Of a stretch of 64,000 bases of DNA, positions 2,316 through 29,649 are shown piece after piece. Each line of letters opens with the position of its first letter. The first letter of the stretch is position 1. The notes under the pieces are model-generated. The model was not told the DNA's origin and searched no databases. It saw only the letters and a program-made list of their open reading frames with translations. Location of the stretch: positions 124,001 through 188,000 of the forward strand of contig QJJF01000005.1 in NCBI GenBank assembly GCA_003202005.1. The letters are read 5' to 3'. This DNA is from Williamsia faeni (lineage in GTDB: Bacteria; Actinomycetota; Actinomycetes; Mycobacteriales; Mycobacteriaceae). The translations under genes and the position numbers were made by a program.

Positions 2316-2538
2316 GAAGCCCCCCTCGCCCTTGACCCCTCAGTAGTAGCAAAGGTGGTCTGGACGTGTCCAGCGCTGGGAACGGTGGCAGTCCGCTCCC
2401 GATCAGCGATCCATCGGCGCCGGCACGGCTGGCGGCATCACCCTGCCCGACCCAGACAGGCGGGTGTCACGCAAGGTCAAAATCACGGTGATTCCAAACG
2501 TAAAGCGCAGTGTCACAACACAAATCGTTTGCCTCTAC
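2316..2538. other. Intergenic region, nothing recognised
   Basis: This stretch between the hydrolase and the riboswitch promoter must contain the divergent promoter of the hydrolase. I see no conserved RNA, repeat or convincing reading frame. Confidence 0.5.
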
Positions 2539-2568
2539 TTGACGGCTGGTCTGTCGAGCACATAGATT
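2539..2568 (+). promoter_or_regulatory. Predicted sigma-70-type promoter of the first SAM-riboswitch operon
   Basis: TTGACG at 2539-2544 and TAGATT at 2563-2568 are separated by 18 bp, a good match to the primary sigma factor consensus. Transcription would start near 2575, almost exactly at the 5' edge of the riboswitch. The same arrangement recurs before the other two riboswitches, which supports the call. Confidence 0.65.
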
Positions 2569-2576
2569 CCTCCTGA

Positions 2577-2664
2577 CCATCCAGAGCGACCGAGAGACTT
2601 GGCTCTTCGACGTCGCAGCAACCCCGTCCCAGGACGTGTGGGTGCTACCGCCAAGACCGATGGA
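2577..2664 (+). promoter_or_regulatory. SAM riboswitch (S-box / SAM-I-like)
   Basis: The sequence has the S-box core in order: ATCCAGAG, GAGAGACTTGGCTC, GCAGCAACC and GGTGCTACCGCC, closed by a P1 helix in which CCATC near 2578 pairs with GATGG near 2659. S-box RNAs bind S-adenosylmethionine and switch off methionine/sulfur genes. The 3' strand of P1 runs directly into an AGG Shine-Dalgarno sequence (GATGGAGG), so SAM binding may hide the ribosome site of the leader peptide that follows. It could belong to the related SAM-I/IV variant class; a covariance search would decide. Two further copies lie at 23.5 and 29.6 kb. Confidence 0.85.
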
Positions 2665-2673
2665 GGAACGATT

Positions 2674-2748
2674 ATGGACCGCGCTTTGTGGCGACGTTTG
2701 CACGTCGACCTGTGTCGAGCGGGCACCTGCGTCTGTACGCAGGTCTGA
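2674..2748 (+). CDS. Cysteine-rich leader peptide (putative attenuator uORF)
   Basis: A 24-codon reading frame with a strong GGAGG Shine-Dalgarno (around 2661) that directly follows the SAM riboswitch. The peptide contains RRLHVDLCR and ends with TCVCTQV, giving three Cys codons at 2713, 2728 and 2734. RR(L/R)H(V/I)DL peptides with Cys near the end are known from actinobacteria as putative leader peptides before sulfur-uptake genes. The last Cys codons lie inside a perfect 8-bp hairpin (2725-2732 with 2737-2744, loop CTGT). Ribosome stalling at Cys codons would open it, which is a classic attenuation layout. Regulation by cysteine is inference; codons and hairpin are seen directly. Confidence 0.75.
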   Translation: MDRALWRRLHVDLCRAGTCVCTQV

Positions 2749-2832
2749 CACACCACATCCACACACATTTTCTCTGCCCTATTGGAAGGCTTCTTCAGCG
2801 ATGCTCGCTGCCCGCACACACCGGTGGTTACG

Positions 2833-3789
2833 GTGACCCAGATAGTTACCCGCCCCACTCCCGACGCCTCGGTCGAGGTAGATGACGTCGACCTCGTCAT
2901 CGCACGTACGTGGCATCCGTGGCGTTGGATCATCGCGATTGCCGTGCTGATCGTCGTCGCCCAGTTCTTGCACGGATTCGCGACCAACCCGGGCTGGGAT
3001 TGGAGTACGTTCGCGCAGTACTTCACTGCGCCGTCCGTGATGCATGCACTGTGGCTGACCATCCAGCTGACCTTCTGGGGATCCCTGCTGGGATTCGCGA
3101 TCGGAATCGCGCTGGCTGCGGCGAGACTGTCGAATAATCCTGTGCTGCAGGTGATTGCCTGGTTCTACATTTGGGCCTTCCGGTCCATTCCGCTGATCGT
3201 CCAGTTGCTGTTCTGGTTCAACATCGCGTACCTCTATCAGACTCTTTCGGTAGGAGTTCCCTTCGGGCCGGGCTTCTTCGAGTTCAATGTCAACAATGCG
3301 ATCAGTGGTTCCACTGCCGCCATCATCGGTCTGGCGTTGCATCAGGCGGCGTATTCGGCGGAGATCATCCGGGCCGGCATCATCTCGGTGGACCAGGGAC
3401 AACTCGAAGCCGCTGCAGCGCTTGGTATTCCGAAACACCGCGAGTTCTTCAAGATCATCCTGCCGCAGGCGATGCGCGGCATCCTCCCGAACGCCGCGAA
3501 CGAGGTCATCAGCTTGTTCAAGGGCACCTCGATCGTGTCGGTCATGGCGATCGCTGAGCTCTTCTACCAGGTGCAGGTCATTTACGGGCGCAGCGGACGC
3601 GTTGTACCGCTGCTCATGGTCGCCACTGTCTGGTACATCGTCTTCACGTCGATCTTGTCGATTGTGCAGTTCTACGTGGAGCGGCATTATGCCAAGGGTG
3701 CGGTGCGCAACATTCCGTTGACTCCGATCCAGAAGGTCCGAAAGAGGTTCTCGGACATCAACTTCGCGCCGCGCGGGGCGACCCGATGA
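2833..3789 (+). CDS. Amino-acid-type ABC transporter permease (HisM/TcyB-like)
   Basis: A 318-residue inner-membrane permease of the polar amino acid ABC family. It has a cytoplasmic N-terminus of about 35 residues, hydrophobic segments from [11 protein letters not shown] onward, and the EAA loop [22 protein letters not shown] that contacts the ATPase. The likely start is GTG at 2833, because the region further upstream in frame falls in untranslated leader. It is the first structural gene after the SAM riboswitch and Cys leader peptide and overlaps the ATPase gene by 4 bp (ATGA). The regulation suggests a sulfur-containing amino acid such as cystine, methionine or a related compound; this is inference from context, not from binding-site residues. 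Confidence 0.88.
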
Positions 3790-4568
3790 CCGAGCCGGTG
3801 GAGAAGTCGCAGTATGCGGTCGAGGTCAGGGGAGTTCGCAAGTCCTATGGTCCTCTCGAGGTTCTCAAAGGCATCGACCTGGTCGTGCGTCCGGGTGAGG
3901 TCACCGCGATCATCGGGCCTTCAGGATCAGGAAAGTCGACGCTCTTGCGCGTCCTCAACCACCTGGAGAAGGTCGACCACGGCATCGTCCGTGTCGACGG
4001 TGACCTGGTGGGGTACAAGCGTAAGGGCAACAAGCTGCACGAGCTGAGCAACAAGGAAATTCTGCAACAGCGCTCGCGGATCGGCTTTGTGTTCCAGAAC
4101 TTCAACCTGTTTCCGCATCTGACCGTGCTCGAGAATGTCATCGAGGCGCCGATCTCGGCGCAGCGGCGCAAGCGGTCGGACGTCGAGCCCGAGGTACTGG
4201 CATTGCTCGAACGCGTCGGCGTCGCAGACAAGGCGCACGACTACCCGCGCAGGCTCTCAGGTGGGCAGCAGCAGCGCGTTGCCATCGCCCGGGCACTTGC
4301 ACTGCGGCCCAAAGTAATTCTGTTCGACGAGCCGACATCTGCGCTCGATCCTGAACTTGTCGGCGAAGTCCTCGAGGTCATTCGAGGGCTCGCACGTGAC
4401 GGTGCAACGCTTGTCATCGTGACCCACGAGGTGGGTTTCGCACGCGAGATCGCCGACACTGTGGTGTTCATGGACGGCGGCGTCATCGTCGAACAGGGAA
4501 CCCCGTCGGAAATCATTGATTCCCCGAGGGAAGAACGCACCAAAGCGTTTCTCGCACACGTCCTCTGA
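3786..4568 (+). CDS. Amino-acid-type ABC transporter ATP-binding protein
   Basis: A 260-residue ATPase of the GlnQ/HisP type that powers the importer encoded around it. Walker [10 protein letters not shown] is at 44-52, the Q-loop in [10 protein letters not shown] about 101-110, the signature LSGGQ at 157-161, Walker B VILFDE at 177-182 and the switch His in VTHE further on. Everything needed for ATP hydrolysis is intact. It overlaps the permease stop (ATGA) and is followed 32 bp later by the binding-protein gene, so the three form one operon under the riboswitch at 2577. Confidence 0.93.
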
Positions 4569-4600: not shown

Positions 4601-5575
4601 ATGCCCAAAACAAGCCGGCGACTCGCGCTTGTCGCGTCCGCGTTGGTCGCGCTCGCACTGACAGCCACTGCGTGCAGTGACCCTGAGACCGAGAACGAGG
4701 TCGTCACCTCCGACGGACAGAGCTTCGACCTGTCACCGGAGCAGTCCACGCGTGTTCGTGTCGACAAGGTCGACGACATCGCCGCGAAGGTGCCCCAGGC
4801 GATCCGCGACCGCGGCACGCTCATCGTCACCGGATCCGGCGGTACCGCACCGCCACTGCGGTTCTACGCTTCGGATGACAAGACGATCGTCGGATCCGAG
4901 GTCGACTTCTCGTACCTGGTCGCGGACATTCTCGGTCTCAAGGTCGACCTGAAGGTCGCTGACTGGTCGCAGAACTTCGTCAAGATCGACTCCGGTGAGA
5001 ACGATGTGTTCATCTCCAATGTCACGGTGACCGAGGAGCGTAAAGACAAATACGACTTCGCCACATACCGCCTCGACAACCTCGCCTTCGAGGCGAAGAA
5101 GGACAGTGGCTGGAAGGTCGACGGCCGAAAGGACGTTGCAGGCAAGAAGATCGGCGTCGGTTCGGGAACCAATCAGGAGCAGTTGCTGGTCGACTGGAAC
5201 GAACAGAATGTCGCAGAAGGCCTCGCGCCGGCAGAGATCGTGTACTACCAGAACGCCGCCGACTACTACCTGGCACTCGGTTCGGGTCGCATCGACGGAT
5301 ACTTCGGCCCCAACCCGTCGTCGGTGTACCACGCTGCAACGTCGGGCGAAACAGAGATTATCGGCACGTTCTCCGGTGCAGGTGATGCACTGCAGGGTGA
5401 GATCGGGGTCCTGACGAAGAAGGACAACGGCCTCATCGAAGCCGTCAACGAGGCAATCAACCACGCGATCGAGGACGGTAGCTACCAAAAGGTCATCGAC
5501 CGCTGGGGTCTGCAGACCGAGGCCGTCACCACGTCGGAGGTCAACCCGGCCGGACTTCCCCGTACCGACGCATAG
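4601..5575 (+). CDS. Amino-acid ABC transporter substrate-binding lipoprotein
   Basis: A 324-residue extracytoplasmic solute-binding protein of family 3. The signal sequence runs through LVALALTATA to a lipidation Cys at residue 25. The mature part has the typical order: the opening strand of lobe one (RDRGTLIVTGSGG), the ADWSQNFVKIDSGENDVFISNVTVTEERKDKY region, which corresponds to the first hinge crossing, and GKKIGVGSGTNQEQ in lobe two. The Shine-Dalgarno AAGGAAC lies 8 bp before the ATG. It is the last gene before a strong hairpin at 5590. Ligand unknown; cystine, methionine or a sulfonated compound would fit the SAM and Cys control of the operon. Confidence 0.9.
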   Translation: MPKTSRRLALVASALVALALTATACSDPETENEVVTSDGQSFDLSPEQSTRVRVDKVDDIAAKVPQAIRDRGTLIVTGSGGTAPPLRFYASDDKTIVGSEVDFSYLVADILGLKVDLKVADWSQNFVKIDSGENDVFISNVTVTEERKDKYDFATYRLDNLAFEAKKDSGWKVDGRKDVAGKKIGVGSGTNQEQLLVDWNEQNVAEGLAPAEIVYYQNAADYYLALGSGRIDGYFGPNPSSVYHAATSGETEIIGTFSGAGDALQGEIGVLTKKDNGLIEAVNEAINHAIEDGSYQKVIDRWGLQTEAVTTSEVNPAGLPRTDA

Positions 5576-5589
5576 AAATTAGTTCGTTG

Positions 5590-5636
5590 AAAGTAGTGGT
5601 CGTCGGCGGGCACGTTGCGCCGGCGACCACTACTTT
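5590..5636 (+). terminator. Strong intercistronic hairpin, probable terminator
   Basis: Two 19-base arms (5590-5608 and 5618-5636) pair along their whole length with one G-U and a 9-base loop, beginning 15 bp after the binding-protein stop. There is no long T-run (only TTTCG follows), common for actinobacterial terminators. It may instead be a processing or mRNA-stabilising element that lowers expression of the three genes downstream. Confidence 0.7.
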
Positions 5637-5682
5637 CGCCCGTGAAATGGGCAGGCCCCCGGACCGATGGAGGGAAACACGA

Positions 5683-6213
5683 ATGAGTGCACTAGGCTGT
5701 GGCGCCTCCGGAACGACCACGGACACTGTCGATTCCGCCCAGTTGCAGATCGCCACCGTCCATCAGGACGATCCACTGGCAGCCCCGCTCATCGAGGAGT
5801 TGGCGCTCGAGTACAGCTCTCGCTACGGACGCAGCCCGGGGGAGCAGTACAGCGCGTTACGGGCATATCCCGCAGAAGAGTTTGCGCCGCCGGGCGGTGT
5901 GCTGATCGTCGCGTTGGCCGACGGCGTCCCGGTCGCCGGTGGTGCGTTCCGTCAGTACGACGCCACCACTGCCGAACTCAAGCGAATCTGGACGTCGTCG
6001 GCGTTCCGTGGCCGCGGTTACGGCAAGACGATCGTGGCAGAACTCGAAAAGATCGCGATCGACCGTGGCTATCGCCGAATCTTTCTCACGACCGGATGGA
6101 ACCAGCCCGAGGCGGTGGCGTTGTATCTCGCTGCCGGCTACACCCCGCTGTACGACACGACACTTCCCTCCGATGAAGTCGGTGTGCATCCGTTCGAAAA
6201 GAGCCTGGCATGA
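5683..6213 (+). CDS. GNAT family N-acetyltransferase
   Basis: A 176-residue acetyltransferase using acetyl-CoA; acceptor unknown. The pyrophosphate-binding motif A is visible as RGRGYGKTIVAELEKIA, followed by the beta-strand/helix GYRRIFLTTGWNQPEAVALYLAAGY typical of the GNAT C-terminal half. I used the ATG at 5683, which has AGGGAA 7 bp upstream, rather than an in-frame start at 5587 that would run through the hairpin. The MFS gene begins 6 bp after its stop, so the two are co-transcribed. GNAT genes beside amino acid importers often acetylate the imported amino acid or a toxic analogue; that role here is only a suggestion. Confidence 0.85.
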   Translation: MSALGCGASGTTTDTVDSAQLQIATVHQDDPLAAPLIEELALEYSSRYGRSPGEQYSALRAYPAEEFAPPGGVLIVALADGVPVAGGAFRQYDATTAELKRIWTSSAFRGRGYGKTIVAELEKIAIDRGYRRIFLTTGWNQPEAVALYLAAGYTPLYDTTLPSDEVGVHPFEKSLA

Positions 6214-23474: not shown

Positions 23475-23482
23475 CGAGAAGC

Positions 23483-23576
23483 ATCATCAGGAGCGATTGA
23501 GAGACCCGGCTCGCTGACATCGCAGCAACCCCCCGCTTCGGCGGGTGAGGGTGCTACCGCCGGGACCGATGAAGGT
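23483..23576 (+). promoter_or_regulatory. SAM riboswitch (S-box / SAM-I-like)
   Basis: Core elements in order are ATCAGGAGCG, GAGAGACCCGGCTC, GCAGCAACC, a variable hairpin CCCGC-TTCG-GCGGG and GGTGCTACCGCC, with P1 formed by TCATC near 23484 and GATGA near 23568. This is the same architecture as at 2577. It precedes five LLM flavin monooxygenase genes, so high SAM should reduce their expression. Confidence 0.85.
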
Positions 23577-29553: not shown

Positions 29554-29557
29554 CACG

Positions 29558-29642
29558 ACCATCCAGAGCGGCCGAGAGACCTGGCTTCAGGACGCCGCAG
29601 CAACCCGCCTCAGCGGCGGGTGCATCGCCAGGATCAATGGAG
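29558..29642 (+). promoter_or_regulatory. SAM riboswitch (S-box / SAM-I-like)
   Basis: Contains ATCCAGAGCGGCCGAGAGAC, CTGGCTTC, GCAGCAACC, a variable hairpin CCCGCC-TCAGC-GGCGGG and GGTGCATCGCC. P1 pairs CCAT at 29559 with ATGG at 29636. The P1 3' strand is fused to the Shine-Dalgarno (ATGGAGGAAACGA then the ATG at 29650), so SAM binding could block translation of the binding-protein gene directly. Confidence 0.82.
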
Positions 29643-29649
29643 GAAACGA

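Follow-up and report, generated by a model that had tools for sequence, protein, structure and literature searches.

How would the expression of an importer be set when its leader carries a SAM riboswitch and a cysteine leader peptide in series? Such a leader had been noticed, from the letters alone (hereafter the sequence-only reading), in a 64-kb window, by which we mean the whole stretch of 64,000 nucleotides analysed here. The features of the locus are collected in Table 1.

Table 1 Features of the leader and of the operon behind it, in window positions
Feature	Position	Strand	Basis
Sigma-70-like promoter, TTGACG (2539-2544)-18 nt-TAGATT (2563-2568)	2539-2568	+	sequence match
SAM-I (S-box) riboswitch aptamer	2574-2666	+	RF00162, full model 1-108
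P1 helix, inner 5' strand CCAUC	2577-2581	+	pairs with GAUGG 2659-2663
P1 3' strand GATGGAGG, containing the leader Shine-Dalgarno (SD) GGAGG (2662-2666)	2659-2666	+	sequence
Leader ORF MDRALWRRLHVDLCRAGTCVCTQV*, 24 codons, ATG 2674 to TGA 2746-2748	2674-2748	+	NF042934, kept in relatives
8-bp hairpin ACCTGCGT-CTGT-ACGCAGGT spanning the final two Cys codons; probably incidental	2725-2744	+	
Conserved Cys codon TGT, offset +11 from the motif His, three codons before the stop	2734-2736	+	
Candidate rut (Rho-binding) region: C-rich, G-poor segment that follows the leader stop	2749-2808	+	composition
ABC permease, GTG start	2833-3789	+	best NCBIfam match cystine ABC permease, below cut-off
ABC ATPase	3786-4568	+	best match L-cystine TcyN, below cut-off
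Substrate-binding lipoprotein SBP_bac_3	4601-5575	+	best NCBIfam match cystine-binding, below cut-off
GNAT acetyltransferase, start codon uncertain	5596-6213	+	

Promoter, aptamer and importer genes

A covariance search placed the S-box above the gathering score of RF00162 (49.1 bits vs 44.4; E 2.4e-10 in a local search), as the sequence-only reading had anticipated with an extent of 2577-2664, slightly shorter than the model match. This aptamer is predicted to bind SAM. The proposed promoter was also recovered, as the single sigma-70-like match within 2400-3000, where 0.1 was expected in shuffles. Upstream of the loci in which an S-box precedes a cysteine leader, hereafter tandems, the starts of TANNNT hexamers clustered 10-17 nt before the S-box (90 distinct upstream regions), and transcripts should therefore start at the aptamer; in the window, the start is expected near 2574-2576, at its 5' edge.

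The importer described behind the leader was likewise found, as three ABC genes whose best NCBIfam matches are of the cystine type. Because all three fell below the curated cut-offs, its substrate is a guess. The GTG start of the permease at 2833 was backed by orthologues. An MFS transporter gene follows the GNAT gene, and homologues of the GNAT acetyltransferase occur directly after S-boxes in some relatives.

The cysteine leader is conserved as a peptide

The 24-codon ORF contains three Cys codons, as had been proposed, at 2713-2715, 2728-2730 and 2734-2736. It matched NCBIfam NF042934 (cis_reg_atten, 'putative leader peptide') with a borderline 27 bits, exactly the cut-off of 27, and with 24.9 bits, under the cut-off, in the genome scan. 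Membership in NF042933 (Ms5788A Cys-rich leader) was rejected at 18.3 bits against a cut-off of 45.

Conservation was evaluated in 87 distinct coding segments from 95 loci, 17 of which had been picked by an exact DNA pattern. The leader motif, HxDL.R, was taken from NF042934 matches, and its His, Asp, Leu and second Arg were selection criteria; the Cys that lies at offset +11 relative to the motif His played no part in any selection. This Cys was present in 84 of the 87 segments and was encoded by TGT in 81 of these 84, TGT being a minor codon in the downstream genes (33 of 121 Cys codons). An Arg two codons before the motif His, also outside the selection, occurred in 84/87 leaders, with base entropies of 0.69, 0.00 and 1.88 at its codon. 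In 72 of 85 leaders, the last Cys lay 0-3 codons from the stop. Judged from the sequences, the leader is selected as a peptide, and its Cys codons would sense cysteine. TGT at +11 was discarded as an S-box-linked mark, being shared by 9 of 11 comparison leaders (one of which, L229, lies behind SAM-IV).

The leader might alternatively be a SAM-controlled relay ORF only, handing ribosomes on to the first gene by reinitiation or coupling as uPPE2 does in Mycobacterium tuberculosis, with its Cys codons incidental. A precedent is given by the B12 riboswitch-uPPE2 system, as far as its description was accessible (PMC11260477), and a possible reinitiation relay was seen in group g22 (L127, L129, L134, L136 and L147), where, in all five places, the uORF served by the S-box SD has seven codons, none of them for Cys (VIIEDPS), and its stop overlaps the start codon that follows. 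The near-constant +11 Cys and its TGT codon argue against a mere relay, as do the short degenerate leaders that retain Cys and the tens of bases separating the leader stop from the gene; we judge it improbable for the leader studied here. In group g6, the leader is shortened to nine codons (MNICTCTHA and variants), devoid of HxDL, in seven places; five of these retain two Cys codons and the other two a single one.

The leader SD overlaps helix P1

The GGAGG of the leader lies 7 nt upstream of its ATG, and the first two G are inside the inner P1 helix. The window shows the arrangement of translational SAM-I riboswitches, in which the P1 3' strand holds the SD of the ORF that follows, and this strand reads GATGGAGG in 56, GATGGAAGG in 18 and GATGG alone in 4 of the 78 listed tandem loci, window included, so that one of the first two occurs in 74/78. 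The 5' strand is CCATC in 74 of them, CTATC in 3 and TCATC in 1, its ATC being part of the look-up and hence not independent. The spacing from GGAGG to the start codon is 3-9 nt in 68 of the 87 leaders, namely those with GGAGG. Of the 63 listed S-box places for which no Cys leader was counted, 32 have GATGGAGG as well; an SD in P1 is therefore common whether or not a leader follows. The suggestion of the sequence-only reading that SAM could control translation of the peptide therefore appears sound, as the SD overlaps P1 in the manner of a described riboswitch class with the ribosome-binding site in P1.

The SD would be only partly paired. In the window, Watson-Crick P1 pairs cover two of the five SD bases, and two of the three outer pairs are mismatched. 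Across 29 distinct loci, the next three P1 pairs outward were canonical in 1, 14 and 17, near the level of shuffled letters (4.4, 11.2 and 11.3). The inner pairs, intact in 29/29, were set aside as evidence, the loci having been chosen by those letters. Nor is an open SD at low SAM evident, because ligand-free folding of 2574-2760 favoured an SD paired with leader codons over one in P1 (-66.3 vs -63.1 kcal/mol). Folding of the 299-nt leader RNA was no better than that of shuffles (z -0.47). With P1 open, RNAfold places this pairing of the P1 3' strand and SD with leader codons in 2640-2720. A perfect-looking anti-SD, TTCCTCC (2567-2573, against GGAGGAA), was rejected: it shares bases with the -10 box, precedes the expected start of the transcript and is thus probably absent from the RNA.

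The tandem recurs in actinobacteria

The RF00162 search of 401 genomes of the family gave a match in 114, above the cut-off in 110. The matches listed amounted to 152 distinct S-box places, in 108 genomes of 13 genera, with five places that had been retrieved twice counted once. The leader scan used a motif of His/Tyr, then Ile/Val/Leu/Ala/Met, Asp/Glu and so on, and admitted only C, G, S, A, T and R at offset +4; on reading the listed S-box places outside the scan, we found none with K, Q, L or V there. A motif leader followed 78 of the 152 places (55 genomes, 8 genera) and another Cys-containing leader followed 11, making 89 with a Cys leader. The 63 uncounted places include L088 and L133, each with a short two-Cys ORF. 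The identical scan in ten control windows at each of 151 loci yielded 0 leaders; the tandem is therefore more than chance.

An exact DNA pattern (GATGGAGG, a start codon and HxDLCR-type codons) was found in 60 stretches of named genomes. Rfam analysis of 35 of them identified an S-box overlapping the pattern in 29; L199 has an S-box by eye that is under the cut-off, and L179 is truncated by the end of the stretch. L175, L180, L182 and L186 look like chance matches and were rejected. The Rfam-confirmed tandems belong to Rhodococcus, Rhodococcoides, Pseudonocardia, Blastococcus, Geodermatophilus, Kineococcus, Plantactinospora, Segeticoccus and MAGs, and the tandem is distributed over six orders (Mycobacteriales, Pseudonocardiales, Geodermatophilales, Kineosporiales, Micromonosporales and Micrococcales).

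The first genes behind annotated representatives encode a cystine-type importer, an SsuA-type binding protein, a MetN-like ATPase, sulfurtransferases and a DmoA-type monooxygenase, and some are not clearly sulfur-related (family-5 binding protein, OsmC, isochorismatase). Fifty-three orthologues of the importer permease had an S-box, 31 with an HxDL leader, 10 with another Cys leader and 12 uncounted; in several of these 12 (L036, L037, L076 and L132) the S-box SD directly serves the permease. An S-box with its SD in P1 looks like the common base, the leader having probably been inserted between S-box and gene. In the genus of the window, 5 of 9 genomes had an S-box match and, among those found, the tandem occurred only in the genome of the window, which may therefore have acquired it. 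Group g6 contains the closest orthologous permeases (79-86% identity).

S-boxes without a Cys leader and leaders without an S-box both occur, as would be expected if the two were independent neighbours, each acting alone and with no hierarchy. The only visible expression platform of the S-box, however, is the SD of the leader, and no terminator-like site separates the two; we regard independence as very improbable.

SAM-IV riboswitches precede similar leaders

An HxDL-type leader with Cys near its end followed 15 of the 70 SAM-IV places examined (L276, L279, L280, L293, L297, L298, L302, L303, L305, L306, L307, L309, L311, L314 and L317), a count obtained with a looser motif than in the S-box scan and without control windows, in a set of which 3 places had been chosen for an already-known nearby leader. 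The distance from aptamer start to the first in-frame leader start was 90-160 nt in 14 of the 15 and greater in L317. L229 is a further case outside the 70 places. Leaders of this type apparently occur in series with two riboswitch classes, SAM-I and SAM-IV. At L234/L317 (G018), SAM-IV is followed by two serial short ORFs, VPEHRTDLLGVHPLAVADVDCR and then MSRSLRPRVPLVRRRAVDLRRTASAVCP, the first having a GGGGAG SD just after the aptamer.

NF042934 matches (E <= 0.1) were present in 36 of 41 genomes (that of the window and those of relatives), over the cut-off in 20. Among 20 NF042934 leader loci checked with Rfam, none had an S-box and two (L229 and L234) had SAM-IV upstream on the same strand. 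Cys sensing by such leaders would therefore need no SAM.

On balance, it seems probable that actinobacteria widely use a SAM riboswitch, SAM-I and apparently SAM-IV, to license a cysteine-counting leader, SAM vetoing the Cys readout, and that this module has been reused before different operons.

The region between leader stop and importer

A key role had been given to the perfect 8-bp hairpin. It exists, but it is missing from ten related leaders and has neither a U-run nor a terminator-like site, and we rejected it as an attenuator. Several of these ten leaders carry other local stems instead, and the 64 kb contain 13 perfect 8-bp stems with loops of 3-8, the leader hairpin among them, or 0.06 per 295 nt. 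A simple consensus scan for intrinsic terminators (hairpin plus U-run) found 0 in 2400-3000, unlike what a classical attenuator would show.

The composition shifts at the leader stop. The following 60 nt had mean fractions of C 0.43 and G 0.24 in 68 distinct tandem loci, with C exceeding G in 67/68; the window segment (2752-2811) had C 0.35 and G 0.17. The controls gave C>G in 35/68 upstream of the S-box and in 47/68 in coding sequence. The aptamer itself had C>G in 57/68 loci, with a much smaller difference (means 0.36 and 0.31), and base composition is therefore weak evidence. C>G was also seen in 8 of 16 gene-upstream windows of the 64-kb sequence, one being the tandem locus, and after the stop of 15/15 SAM-IV-linked and 9/10 other leaders. 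By composition, the segment is as C-rich and G-poor as a Rho-dependent, tnaC-like leader attenuator requires. We favour termination by Rho because of this post-stop segment, the lack of a terminator-like site and the Rho domain that the genome encodes.

The same two inputs could instead have a translational output, in which a ribosome stalled on the Cys codons would alter pairing and free the ribosome site of the importer with no part for Rho. A stalled ribosome that frees a ribosome site is a model for mycobacterial Cys uORFs, and the lack of a terminator-like site in 2400-3000 also suits it. RNAalifold on one group of 14 sequences paired the leader-stop region with the gene start through several covarying (two-type) pairs. 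Possible conserved pair sets between leader and gene were seen in groups permg23, where 6 of 21 predicted pairs were kept with two types, and sbp23, and translational output stays a rival because of them. Between leader and importer, the window's own group showed little conserved structure (of 10 predicted pairs, 3 were kept with two types), and so did sbp6 (3 two-type pairs, all inside the leader). The leader-to-gene distance, which varies from about 40 to 180 nt, also speaks against a translational output, and the C-rich segment would be left unexplained; we consider this output unlikely, with a modest chance of being the correct one. In group g23 (L100, L101 and L107), a second short ORF, MSTPSGSAP (MSIPSGSAP in L101), lies between Cys leader and permease and ends in GTGA, overlapping the permease start.

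A proposed hierarchical gate for SAM and cysteine

Starting from the observed parts, their positions and recurrence, the conservation of the leader and the composition of the segment behind it, we infer SAM binding, ribosome stalling, a Rho step and a gate logic as follows. When SAM is bound, P1 would be stable and part of the leader SD occupied, so that the leader would stay untranslated; at low SAM, ribosomes would translate it. With plentiful Cys-tRNA, they would finish the leader and leave at the stop codon. With scarce Cys-tRNA, they would be held up at the Cys codons; the final one usually lies no more than three codons from the stop. The C-rich segment beginning at the stop would be a Rho-loading site that is shielded only when a ribosome has stalled at the leader's end. 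A Rho site masked by a stalled ribosome resembles the geometry of tnaC. Rho would thus be free to end transcription at high SAM, where no ribosome arrives, and also at high Cys, where the ribosome has left, and RNA polymerase would reach the importer genes only when both SAM and Cys are low.

We hold with moderate confidence that the leader is such a hierarchical two-input RNA regulator, in which SAM blocks the leader, low Cys stalls the ribosome and Rho decides. The sequence-only reading had proposed an AND/OR gate for SAM and cysteine. Both sensors do lie in one leader, and the gate is likely the sharper, both-low form, because the SAM switch sits on the SD of the leader and not on the start of the importer. 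That reading was right about S-box, promoter, Cys leader and importer, and its idea of SAM acting on the peptide was a good one; the hairpin as a key element found no support, and both the recurrence and SAM-IV were missed. The parts are ordinary, and their arrangement is unusual and recurrent. The architecture is well supported, and the function is read from it.

If the model is true, the leader would be a natural series gate of an aptamer and a ribosome-based amino-acid sensor, found in six actinobacterial orders when the aptamer is SAM-I and in one when it is SAM-IV, and the tandem would be a compact two-input part. It suggests that many such riboswitches act first on a leader peptide and not on the annotated gene, in which case the S-box and SAM-IV regulons of Rhodococcus and its relatives would need rereading.

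Relation to known systems

For polycysteine uORFs and the Cys leader peptides of actinobacteria, the main paper is reportedly Canestrari 2020, and Sherlock 2018 reportedly deals with tandem riboswitch logic gates. Our literature search, which covered few subscription journals, found no description, in titles, abstracts or accessible passages, of a cysteine leader placed in series with a SAM riboswitch; the comparisons below refer to the accessible parts of the papers. SAM-I riboswitches with the ribosome-binding site in the 3' side of P1 are a described class (Barrick & Breaker 2007, PMC2258182). The window shares with it the RF00162 aptamer and the position of the ribosome site, and differs in that the ORF served is a cysteine leader, not the first enzyme or transporter gene.

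Mycobacterial Cys leaders without terminators have been reported, with Rho proposed as a weak prediction (PMC1262725). Like NF042934 and actinobacterial Cys leaders (PMC1262725, PMC4633059), the window leader is a short ORF with the HxDL.R motif, Cys near the stop and no intrinsic terminator. Unlike these, it has its SD inside a riboswitch, and its residue at offset +4 is Cys (HVDLCR), a position at which the 11 comparison leaders (L229 behind SAM-IV among them) carry other residues. A Cys uORF before cysS in Rhodobacterales, uORFC-8-2, also places Cys codons, two in its case, in a short upstream ORF, and ribosome-mediated attenuation was proposed (PMC8632094). Unlike the window leader, uORFC-8-2 has an intrinsic terminator, and the accessible text mentions no riboswitch.

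The closest published systems, as far as they are described in the accessible texts, are two riboswitch/uORF pairs. The M-box riboswitch of M. tuberculosis controls the rv1805A uORF with Rho-dependent termination (PMC12810186). There, as proposed here, a riboswitch directly controls a small upstream ORF and termination is Rho-dependent; the aptamer is another one, and the window uORF has conserved Cys codons, which would give a second input. In the B12 riboswitch-uPPE2 system, a leader likewise under riboswitch control must be translated for the downstream gene (PMC11260477). It uses termination-reinitiation at an overlapping start, and the accessible text reports no amino-acid sensing.

Two metabolites are also read in a single leader by tandem riboswitch gates, such as SAM-I and B12 at metE of Bacillus clausii (PMC2258182). 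Those gates consist of two aptamers, whereas in the window an aptamer would stand in series with a ribosome-based amino-acid sensor.

A putative sulfur-scavenging region around the locus

RF00162 had three matches in the genome at E <= 0.001 (2574, 23481 and 29556), all in the 64-kb window and within 27 kb. Luciferase-like monooxygenases (sulfonate or DmoA type), a family-5 binding protein and an alkanesulfonate monooxygenase are encoded near the other two. The part from 2500 to 36000 looks like a sulfur-scavenging region and may be mobile. A plasmid collection yielded 2 records, and in both of them under a quarter of the query was covered. The part from 2500 to 36000 also contains a taurine-dioxygenase-like gene, sulfonate monooxygenases and ABC genes. 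The S-box at 23481-23575 lies before the luciferase-like monooxygenase genes without an SD in P1 (GATGAAGG), and that at 29556-29643 (39.3 bits, below the cut-off) is directly on the gene for the family-5 binding protein.
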